This document shows positions 43,234-63,206 of a DNA stretch of 64,000 nt, piece after piece. The notes under the pieces are model-generated. The model did no database searches and was not told where the DNA came from. It was given only the letters and a program-made list of their open reading frames with translations. Both the position numbers and the translations under genes were made by a program. Within the stretch, counting starts at the first letter, position 1. Each line of letters starts with the position of its first letter. This stretch comes from a virus: positions 186,614-250,613 of the IMG/VR virus record IMGVR_UViG_3300030085_002431; one strand, written 5' to 3'.

Positions 43234-43689
43234 ATGAAAATAGAAGTAGAAGGTTCTCCTGTTCTCAGAAAGAAATCAAAAAGAGTTTCAAATATAAACA
43301 ACGATATCCGAAAGTTTTGTGCTGAGATGGCACAGACAATGAGAGATGCAAAGGGTATTGGAATTTCAGCACCCCAGGTGGGGGTATCTAAACGCATCAT
43401 AATTGTTAATGATGGAGGAAATGATTGGGTATTGATTAACCCAGAAATTATTTGGGATGATGGTAAAAGAGTTTCTTTTAATGAGGGTTGTTTAAGTGTT
43501 CCTGGTGAATATGCAGATATTCTCAGACCAGACAGGATTAGGGTGAAATATAGAGAACTATCTGGGAGACCTCAGACTGTAGACTTAGACGGTTTATTGT
43601 CAAGGATAGTGCAACATGAAATTGACCACTTAAATGGCATTCTTTTCACAGATTACTTGACTGATAGAGGAAGTGCGATTACTATATAA
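43234..43689 (+). CDS. def: Peptide deformylase, 151 aa
   Basis: All three motifs are present: GIGISAPQVG (about 40-49), EGCLSVPG (about 84-91) and HEIDH (about 128-132), which together hold the catalytic metal with Cys and two His. Phage deformylases remove the formyl group from new proteins and are thought to act preferentially on photosystem proteins such as D1. It is short because it lacks the C-terminal helix of host enzymes. It sits between tRNA-Ala and the tmRNA. An upstream in-frame start inside the tRNA is rejected. Confidence 0.93.
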   Translation: MKIEVEGSPVLRKKSKRVSNINNDIRKFCAEMAQTMRDAKGIGISAPQVGVSKRIIIVNDGGNDWVLINPEIIWDDGKRVSFNEGCLSVPGEYADILRPDRIRVKYRELSGRPQTVDLDGLLSRIVQHEIDHLNGILFTDYLTDRGSAITI

Positions 43690-43691
43690 AG

Positions 43692-43950
43692 TGTTCAAGA
43701 GGTTGCGAAGTCTGTTGTTTTGGACAGGGGTTCGATTCCCCTCACCTCCATTCATGGGGGTGCCATGGTTTCGACAGGGCAAAAAGGTCGTAATTGTTGA
43801 CGGGACATAAACATAGATGCAAACACATCTGAAACCGCAGCAAATAACATTGTTGCATTCTCCCGCAGCACCGTTGCTGCCTGAATGGGGGATGGGGGAT
43901 AAGTCTTCCTTCTAATCCAATAGACTCTTGGGGGTGAGATGCCCCTCTTT
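43692..43950 (+). ncRNA. ssrA: Circularly permuted two-piece tmRNA (ssrA)
   Basis: The acceptor half comes first, with T arm AGGGG-TTCGATT-CCCCT and 3' acceptor strand CACCTCC plus discriminator A (43743-43750). Only five bases (TTCAT) follow before the coding half starts with GGGGGTG (43756-43762), which pairs with that strand, then GGTTTCGACAGG, the tmRNA D-loop signature. A tag frame runs GCA AAT AAC ATT GTT.. to TGA at 43882-43884 and reads ANNIVAFSRSTVAA, optionally with an extra Ala in front. tmRNA rescues stalled ribosomes and tags the peptides for proteolysis. The permuted layout and tag style are those of marine picocyanobacteria. The exact ends are approximate. Confidence 0.9.
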
Positions 43951-43952
43951 TT
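43930..43952 (+). terminator. Terminator at tmRNA 3' end
   Basis: GGGG/CCCC stem followed by TC and a run of five T. Confidence 0.65.
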
Positions 43953-43953
43953 G

Positions 43954-43961
43954 TATAAATA
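43954..43961 (+). promoter_or_regulatory. Late promoter TATAAATA
   Basis: A perfect late core directly behind the tmRNA terminator, 33 nt before the ATG at 43994. Confidence 0.65.
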
Positions 43962-43993
43962 CTCCAGAGTTAATTAAACTTAGGATACTTTTT

Positions 43994-60494: not shown

Positions 60495-60767
60495 ATGCTT
60501 AAGGCAATTACATCACTATTACTATCAGTTACCTTATGGGTACAAGTTCCACAATGGAATGATGATTGGAGTAATTGTGCAGTAGATGTTCCTGACACTA
60601 GTTGTCATTGGTACATTGTAAATGCCGATAATACTTTTGGTGAAGGATTCGATTGGGAAACTGCACCATGGTATTCGATTGAAGGATTACAAGACATTGC
60701 TAATCTTCATGATGAGGTAATTAGTAATGGTCACACTTATACAGTTGAAGCATTACAAAATCAATGA
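60495..60767 (+). CDS. Secreted or periplasmic protein, 90 aa
   Basis: A signal peptide is likely (MLKAITSLLLSVTLWVQV). The mature part is acidic, with five Trp and two Cys (NCAVDVPDTSC), which could form a disulfide in the periplasm. Function unknown; an envelope or superinfection role is a guess. Confidence 0.62.
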   Translation: MLKAITSLLLSVTLWVQVPQWNDDWSNCAVDVPDTSCHWYIVNADNTFGEGFDWETAPWYSIEGLQDIANLHDEVISNGHTYTVEALQNQ

Positions 60768-61069
60768 CGAAAAGGGTAAAGGATTTAATTAGTGAACTCG
60801 AACTATTAAATCCGAATGAATCTATCTTTGCTTTATATTATACAAAGGAGGATGTAAAACAATTAGATTACTATTGTACTGATTGTTATCCTTATACTGA
60901 TGAACTAGCAGAGAAGACAATTACTAAACTAACTGAAGATGGTGATGTAAAGAATACAGTAGACAAGTTAGTTACTAATACAATGAGAGATGATACTAGT
61001 TATCTCGTACAAGAAGAATGTAGATTAGATAGTATTGACAAGGTATTAAATGACTCTCCGAGTTACTAA
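60764..61069 (+). CDS. Hypothetical acidic protein, 101 aa
   Basis: An acidic protein with a CTDC motif near 38-41. It overlaps the preceding gene by 4 nt and is the last gene before the repeat-rich non-coding region. Confidence 0.62.
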   Translation: MTKRVKDLISELELLNPNESIFALYYTKEDVKQLDYYCTDCYPYTDELAEKTITKLTEDGDVKNTVDKLVTNTMRDDTSYLVQEECRLDSIDKVLNDSPSY

Positions 61070-61289
61070 AAAGTGCATCTGTGGAAAAACTTGTGGAAAA
61101 ACAATCATTAAATAAATGGTTAAAAAAACATAGTTGCGTGTTTTATGTTTTCCACAGAAGGTGTTGAAAAAGTATATAAATACCCTGTTTTATCTTCGTT
61201 ATTATGTTCTAAACCCCTCTGGTTATTGTTATCTAAGACCGCAGTATATCATGAGTTGACAAAAAAGTCAAGAAAATTTCTGAAACTTT

Positions 61290-61460
61290 TTGAGTCTCAC
61301 ACATATTATTCGTCTGATATAAGACTCAACAAAACTGTAAGATTTTATGAGTCCTCTGAGTCTCACTGATTCGTCCATTCTTATGCGAAACTCACTGGTC
61401 TCAGAGAACTTATGAGTCTCAGACCACTCGAAAATTCGTCCACTGGACACAGTAGTCTCA
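61290..61460 (+). repeat. GAGTCTCA repeat cluster
   Basis: Copies or near copies of (T)GAGTCTCA or its complement occur near 61320, 61291, 61357, 61398, 61413 and 61453. TGGTCT/AGACCA (61396/61421) forms an inverted pair around two of them. Confidence 0.6.
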
Positions 61461-61532
61461 TTGTTTTGCGTGTAGACTACTAGGGTGGTTTTGAGGGAGG
61501 GAAGTATTACACAGCACTATGTGATAATAATT

Positions 61533-61840
61533 ACACAGTGAGTTTGTATTAGTTTTCCACAGGCAAAGTATTAGTTATCCACAGACCCTGTGGAAAAGTA
61601 TTATAAACCTGTGGAAAACTTTATACCTGGGGGAGGGGTTTATATTACTAATACACAGTGAGTTTCTGATTGTTTATAAACACCAGTACTACTCACAAAC
61701 ACTCCGAGGGTTTCTAATACTTTACAGATTGCCCTTCGTGTATTATAATAAAACAGTGTTGTGTAATTATAATTAAGTAGTACTGTTTAATTCTTATACC
61801 CACGGGGGGGTTATTAATAACAATTACTTAGTGAGTTCGT
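61533..61840 (+). repeat. ACACAGTGAGTTT repeats
   Basis: ACACAGTGAGTTT occurs at 61533 and 61653, and a diverged copy (ACTTAGTGAGTTCG) at 61826. ACAGCACTA also occurs twice (61511 and about 61853). Confidence 0.6.
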
Positions 61841-61887
61841 TATTGTTATTATACAGCACTAAATGACAGTAACCCTCGGGGGGGTTA

Positions 61888-61904
61888 GGTTTTTTATAAA
61901 AACC
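61888..61904 (+). repeat. A/T hairpin in origin-like region
   Basis: GGTTTTT/AAAAACC with a 3-nt loop, nested within a larger GGTTAGG/CCTAACC stem. Confidence 0.55.
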
Positions 61905-61965
61905 GATGGGTCCCCCTAACCTACAAAAGTATGCATCCACGAGACCTTTACCCCGCATATAAAAA

Positions 61966-61983
61966 TTTTTCCGAGGGGAAAAA
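61966..61983 (+). repeat. TTTTTCC/GGAAAAA hairpin, duplicated
   Basis: TTTTTCCGAGGGGAAAAA forms a 7-bp stem; a second copy of TTCCGAGGGGAAAAAA lies at about 62015-62030 and a partial one (TCCGAGGTCC) at about 61990. Confidence 0.55.
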
Positions 61984-62082
61984 CGGGTCTCCGAGGTCCG
62001 TTCAAGAAAAAAAATTCCGAGGGGAAAAAATAGGTTAAAAACCCTGTGAGTGCTATATAACGGAGAATAAAAATTTCTAAGA

Positions 62083-62226
62083 ATGACCGAAGAAGAGAAG
62101 GAGTTACTCATCGAGTGCATTCAATTCCGTTTACAGCACGACAAGTCTTTAAATAGTAATGAAGTATTACGTGAAGATTTGGAAGAATTGCTCTTTAAAG
62201 TAGAGGATATTGATGACTACGTATGA
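62083..62226 (+). CDS. Hypothetical acidic protein, 47 aa
   Basis: A helical acidic protein (TEEEKELLIECIQFRLQHD). It is the first gene after the non-coding region and overlaps the next by 14 nt. Confidence 0.6.
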   Translation: MTEEEKELLIECIQFRLQHDKSLNSNEVLREDLEELLFKVEDIDDYV

Positions 62227-62453: not shown

Positions 62454-63206
62454 ATGGCCAAAGGATTTACAGTAAAAGCAAAGGCACCGACAGTTAATAA
62501 GAACGTTGACGAATTCGACCTTGCAGCAGCAAAGGAGATGATTAAAGGTAAGGCAGTTGTATTTTGTCTACCTGGACGAGGATGTTCATATACGTTTATG
62601 AAGAGTTTTGTACAATTGTGTTTTGACCTTGTACAAGCAGGTGCGAGTATTCAGATTAGTCAAGACTATAGTTCCATGGTGAACTTTGCACGATGCAAGT
62701 GTCTTGGTGCTAATGTATTGCGTGGACCGAATCAGAAACCTTGGGATGGTAAACTGCAATATGATTATCAGTTGTGGATTGACAGTGATATTGTCTTCGA
62801 CACCGAGAAGTTCTATCGTCTTGTAGCAATGGATAAGGACATTGCAGCAGGTTGGTACATGACTGAGGATGGTCGTACTACGAGTGTTGCTCACTGGTTG
62901 GAAGAGGATGACTTCCGTACCAATGGTGGAGTGATGAATCACGAAACTGCTGAGACCATGCCGAAGCGTAAAAAACCGTTTACCGTTGACTACACTGGTT
63001 TCGGATGGGTTCTGATTAAGAACGGAGTCTTCGAGAGTCTTGAGTACCCCTGGTTTGCTCCTAAGATGCAGCAATTTGAATCGGGAGAGGTTCAGGATAT
63101 GTGTGGTGAGGATGTCTCCTTCTGCCTGGATGCCAAGGAAGCAGGGTTTGAAATCTGGTGCGACCCGAAGATTCGTGTTGGTCATGAAAAGACCCGAGTT
63201 ATCTGA
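62454..63206 (+). CDS. GT-A-type glycosyltransferase-like protein, 250 aa
   Basis: YQLWIDSDIVFDTEKF contains a D-x-D nucleotide-sugar metal motif. SQDYSSMVNFARCKCLGAN and GEDVSFCLDAKEAGFEIWCDP are typical of GT2-like folds (the latter being the ED acid/base region). The first 30 residues are a separate basic tail. It might glycosylate DNA, protein or cell wall; the target is unknown. A strong terminator follows. Confidence 0.65.
   Translation: MAKGFTVKAKAPTVNKNVDEFDLAAAKEMIKGKAVVFCLPGRGCSYTFMKSFVQLCFDLVQAGASIQISQDYSSMVNFARCKCLGANVLRGPNQKPWDGKLQYDYQLWIDSDIVFDTEKFYRLVAMDKDIAAGWYMTEDGRTTSVAHWLEEDDFRTNGGVMNHETAETMPKRKKPFTVDYTGFGWVLIKNGVFESLEYPWFAPKMQQFESGEVQDMCGEDVSFCLDAKEAGFEIWCDPKIRVGHEKTRVI

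Follow-up and report, generated by a model that had tools for sequence, protein, structure and literature searches.

Do T4-like cyanophages replicate from a fixed origin, and does the DnaA of their host take part in it? The question is raised by a gene-free region at 61070-62082 of the window (the whole 64,000-nucleotide stretch of phage DNA analysed), between open reading frames at 60764-61069 and 62083-62226. From seven DnaA-box-like 9-mers in this region the initial annotation had proposed a candidate origin that uses host DnaA, which would be unusual for a phage of the T4 type. To our knowledge, DnaA has no part in T4 replication. The place and mode of initiation in the abundant T4-like cyanophages have apparently been little studied; in one review, only a single theta origin predicted for Syn9 is mentioned (Weigele et al. 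2007, as cited in PMC2984593).

All seven 9-mers are present as exact matches. Boxes 1 (61080-61088) and 2 (61092-61100), both on the minus strand and in tandem with a gap of three bases, belong to the upstream cluster and are followed by box 3 (61148-61156, plus strand) and by a one-mismatch box, TTTTCAACA (61162-61170, minus strand). The downstream cluster begins with box 4 (61553-61561, plus strand) and continues with box 5 (61575-61583, plus strand), box 6 (61589-61597, minus strand), and box 7 (61610-61618, minus strand). Box 5 is TTATCCACA, the bacterial consensus DnaA box; the other six are TTTTCCACA, which had been called the cyanobacterial form and, according to published work (PMC4674748), is indeed the DnaA box that most cyanobacteria use. 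The window holds nine such 9-mers against 2.94 expected from shuffles, with none of 100 shuffles reaching nine. The full 250,613-base record has 13, seven of them within 539 bases, so that 54% of the sites fall in 0.2% of the sequence; the remaining 250 kb or so contain six, with no dense clustering. At this background rate 539 bases should hold 0.013 sites, and seven would arise with a Poisson probability of about 1e-17, uncorrected for position. A similar density elsewhere in the genome would have counted against the proposal and was not found. The region is also the longest part of the window to have no ORF on the forward strand (713-1084 bases, according to the ORF cut-off applied), and it is rich in repeats.

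The record encodes psbA, psbD-like genes, UvsY, and gp59, as expected of a T4-like cyanophage, and has the baseplate gene gp25 at its first bases. Downstream of the boxes is a glycosyltransferase-like gene (phrog_1574; 62454-63206, plus strand) that serves as a syntenic marker, with gp25 next, across the ends of the record. Measured across these ends, the cluster is 3359 bases from gp25, compared with 3362 in an uninterrupted relative (G009); because the two distances agree within three bases, the genome in the record is probably complete and circularly permuted. A profile search (PF00308) found no phage-encoded DnaA in the record. Two other genes of this phage deserve mention. A permuted tmRNA gene of cyanobacterial type lies among tRNA genes at 43661-43975 of the window (plus strand; Rfam RF01851, 133.6 bits) and encodes the tag ANTSETAANNIVAFSRSTVAA. 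The second photosystem reaction-centre gene, psbD-like, at 163609-164465 of the record, was matched as two pieces in different frames, and the split looks like a frameshift or an insertion.

The bases of the boxes have been retained while the DNA around them has diverged. Compared with three relatives, L095, L097, and L098, the boxes differ at 1 of 63, 1 of 63, and 0 of 45 positions, whereas the rest of the region differs at 226 of 894, 111 of 904, and 293 of 852 (12-34%); Fisher p-values are approximately 8e-7, 0.007, and 2e-8, respectively, with the L098 alignment leaving out boxes 1 and 2 and the AT-rich element described below. The sole change within a box, in L095 and L097, exchanges TTATCCACA of box 5 for TTTTCCACA, and both are DnaA boxes. 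Distances between neighbouring boxes peak at 11-14 and 21-25 bases, or about one and two helical turns, so bound proteins would sit near the same face of the helix.

The place of the cluster is also conserved, in many phages of ocean and lake cyanobacteria. Searching the isolates with blastn returned no direct DNA relatives of the region, and comparison therefore relied on synteny and sequence patterns in the complete genomes of 19 T4-like cyanophage isolates together with this record, 20 in all. Each has 1-13 exact boxes, and from these totals one would expect about 1.1 pairs of boxes no more than 300 bases apart over all 20 genomes; a pair or cluster within that distance occurs in ten (S-PM2, Syn9, S-SM2, S-RIM4, S-RIM8, S-RIM50, S-M1, DSL-LC02, DSL-LC03, and this record), in every case 2.8-7.8 kb upstream of gp25; the locus is at 19.2 kb in S-PM2, 41.5-41.7 kb in S-RIM8, and about 52.6 kb in Syn9. 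The chance of such placement, taken for eight lineages, is about 1e-11. When all 9-mers in the 12.5 kb upstream of gp25 were ranked, TTTTCCACA came first, clustered in 10 of the 20 genomes, while unrelated 9-mers were clustered in three at most. The other half of the genomes, including several Synechococcus phages, have no exact boxes at the locus; the boxes are therefore not essential to all of these phages. The same arrangement was seen in 12 metagenomic phage contigs, up to 11.9 kb from gp25, but several were retrieved through the motif and are excluded from prevalence. Since a pattern scan selects for the motif, estimates of prevalence rely on the isolates and on scans with proteins. Scanning IMG/VR with the downstream glycosyltransferase-like protein, which is independent of the motif, recovered contigs that carry 3-8 exact boxes in the corresponding upstream region; of the 80 loci, most had none, and many end early upstream. 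It is well supported by these comparisons that the cluster is DnaA-box sequence under selection, conserved in place, spacing, and bases. This much of the initial annotation stands and can be widened from one phage to many, while the replication origin itself is something we infer, on grounds given below. Cumulative GC skew in four isolates, a weak test for such genomes, did not turn consistently at the locus. In S-PM2, RefSeq places tRNA features at 17.4-19.3 kb, two of them covering DnaA boxes; ARAGORN did not find these tRNAs in that sequence, and the annotation may be shifted.

Thirteen bases from box 2 lies the AT-rich sequence AAATGGTTAAAAAAACATA (61114-61132, plus strand), a candidate unwinding element with one exact copy in the record and counterparts at the same locus in relatives. 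Its consensus is AAATGGTTAAAAAAACATA or AAATGTATTAAAAAATATA with small variations, and in most genomes the first box cluster comes before it. The consensus occurs exactly once, at the locus, in this record, Sf-FS3, DSL-LC03, S-SCSM2R, S-PM2, and S-RSM4, and with one mismatch in DSL-LC02, S-RIM4, and Bellamy; Syn9, S-RIM8, and others have only a looser AT-rich match. In Sf-FS3, S-SCSM2R, S-RSM4, and Bellamy the element is present without exact boxes at the locus. Among 99 distinct contexts of the element in IMG/VR, 37 have an exact box at -150 to +60 bases, with recurring offsets, and in IMG/VR stretches that contain both the element and gp25, the latter is 2.7-7.6 kb downstream with one exception. 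When 50-100-base stretches of the window are ranked by stability, the element is within the lowest 1-3% but is not the minimum. No clear run of DnaA-trios was seen by eye beside the tandem boxes; the trio pattern in its generic form is too permissive to be discriminating. In S-SCSM2R and Sf-FS3, about 4.0-4.3 kb upstream of gp25, an apparent hairpin-like inverted repeat (by eye) lies just before the element, where relatives carry DnaA boxes.

Beyond the AT-rich element are two diverging sigma-70-like promoters that face outward both ways. The leftward one, P_L (61243-61271, minus strand), is TTGACT-17-TATACT with a TG extended -10 and has equivalents in most relatives; reading from 61271 to 61243, it would transcribe through the AT-rich element (61132-61114) towards boxes 1 and 2. 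The rightward one (61721-61749, plus strand) is TTTACA-17-TATAAT, an 11/12 match, and TTGACA-17-TATAAT occurs rightward at the locus in Syn9, S-RIM4, S-SM2, and S-SCSM2R. Promoter scores are weak for S-PM2 rightward and Syn9 leftward. In the window alone the number of promoter-like sites is not above that in shuffles. Across the related, and so not independent, genomes, promoter-like sequence is above chance: TTGACA occurs at 2.3-2.5 per kb at the locus against 0.4-0.6 elsewhere, an excess of 4-5 times over flanking DNA on each strand. As the genes neighbouring the locus in annotated isolates run rightward, transcription to the left would be antisense, without any gene to express. Several phages without boxes retain both the AT-rich element and the promoters, and for this reason the boxes look like an addition to an origin of the transcription type. 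The contrast with T4 drawn in the initial annotation is softened accordingly, in that T4-type initiation is probably not replaced here by another mode.

In position and layout the locus resembles the T4 origin oriE. The T4 record has oriE immediately before 5.4 (PAAR), 6, and 7, and its priming RNA runs antisense to gene 5; the order in S-RIM50 is the locus, a wedge protein, PAAR (same PHROG as in T4), gp25, and gp6. The PAAR gene was identified in S-RIM50 only, while the gp25-gp6 order is general. The cyanophage locus thus resembles oriE in its position upstream of PAAR, 6, and 7 and in an antisense RNA, which in cyanophages is predicted. Both also have an early-mode promoter and iterated repeats, those of oriE being iterons of unknown role (PMC3016281). 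The T4-oriE-type iterons are not matched by the cyanophage repeats in sequence, length, or setting: those of T4 are 24-base units inside gene 5, unrelated to DnaA boxes, while the cyanophage locus lies mostly between genes and carries DnaA boxes. The word DnaA is absent from the T4 review (PMC3016281). T4 oriF and oriG, like the cyanophage locus, have a promoter with an A+T-rich unwinding element downstream (PMC3016281), but theirs are MotA middle promoters rather than host sigma-70-like ones. Homology to oriF, which is beside gene 25, was considered and dropped, because oriF is on the other side of that gene, beside uvsY, while uvsY is far from the locus in this phage. Synteny through an upstream helicase (PHROG 16, common with T4 UvsW) is not claimed, the direct match being short. 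The bacterial side of the comparison is the cyanobacterial oriC and the bacterial basal unwinding system, which share with the locus the box TTTTCCACA, AT-rich DNA alongside, and tandem boxes 2-3 bases apart (PMC4674748, PMC8287927); however, the cyanophage locus is not near dnaA or dnaN, and the phage has its own helicase loader, gp59.

The adjoining AT-rich element, the diverging promoters, and the match to oriE in position and antisense transcription all favour reading the locus as an origin. On balance it is probably, though far from surely, an oriE-like, transcription-assisted replication origin of the Kyanoviridae, to which sites for host DnaA have been added in many phages. Early in infection, host RNA polymerase would fire from the diverging sigma-70 promoters, and the leftward transcript, serving no gene, would cross the AT-rich element. 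Cooperative binding of host DnaA to boxes in helical phase would help to open that element or hold it open; phage gp59 and gp41 could then load there, and the leftward RNA might prime the leading strand. DnaA binding, melting, priming, and origin activity are here predicted from sequence. Also in favour of this reading, the host Synechococcus WH7803 has an intact DnaA with a normal DNA-binding domain, and the phage encodes gp59 and UvsY and no DnaA of its own.

Other functions could be served by the same boxes. A cluster of DnaA boxes outside oriC is known from E. coli in datA, which titrates DnaA, regulates its activity, and has neither an unwinding element nor a priming promoter. Similarly, the phage boxes may be a decoy that withdraws DnaA from the host, blocking initiation of the host chromosome, with sites that multiply along with the phage DNA. 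The many strong boxes, phased for cooperative binding, would suit this role, which would be useful to a lytic phage and would need no origin activity. A decoy, however, would not have to keep to a single place, with an AT-rich element and diverging promoters conserved at its side, and some phages have only 2-3 boxes; we regard this explanation as unlikely. DnaA is also a known transcription factor in bacteria, and with sigma-70-like promoters 50-250 bases from the boxes, host DnaA could control the diverging early promoters and tie phage transcription to the host cell cycle, the locus then being no origin. Regulation of this kind is quite unlikely: it leaves a leftward promoter with no gene to serve, and in many genomes there are two box clusters 240-1000 bases apart, placing the second hundreds of bases away. 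A third possibility is that a phage-encoded protein binds the 9-mer, whose likeness to the DnaA box would be convergence. The flanking bases have some preference (A,G before; G after), and the marine Synechococcus WH7803 and RCC307 have near dnaN only one-mismatch boxes and no perfect one, which also speaks against the origin reading. ORFs around exact box pairs elsewhere in these two chromosomes gave nothing. Against such a protein, the core that never varies is identical to the DnaA box published for cyanobacteria, and the only variant among relatives, TTATCCACA, is the bacterial consensus; convergence to this degree is improbable. Chance clustering or functionless drift of repeats, which the repeat-rich region might suggest, is contradicted by near-invariant 9-mers in a diverging background across many lineages and is hardly credible.

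If the reading of the locus as a transcription-assisted origin is extended beyond this phage, a large share of T4-like cyanophages may have one conserved hybrid origin in common, with host DnaA recruited to an oriE-like unwinding element primed by an antisense transcript, the boxes being gained and lost and the transcription core kept; this generalization is tentative, with the odds lying somewhat against it. As a single conserved locus, in cultured phages with culturable hosts, it is open to test. Use of DnaA would couple phage replication to a host protein with links to light and the cell cycle, and would show T4-type initiation mixing with the bacterial type. A text search of the literature, with most subscription papers outside its reach, found no paper linking cyanophages with DnaA boxes. 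Syn9, which carries the cluster, is like this record a T4-like cyanophage, and its theta origin is mentioned as predicted in the review (PMC2984593); that prediction may have priority for the locus, but apparently not for the comparative anatomy described here. No RNA family was identified at the locus by an Rfam search. At 61798-61887 of the window, in the interval from box 7 to the next gene, are the near-identical G-run words ACCCACGGGGGGGTTA and ACCCTCGGGGGGGTTA, together with imperfect palindromes and a terminator-like hairpin, and part of this sequence is kept in relatives.
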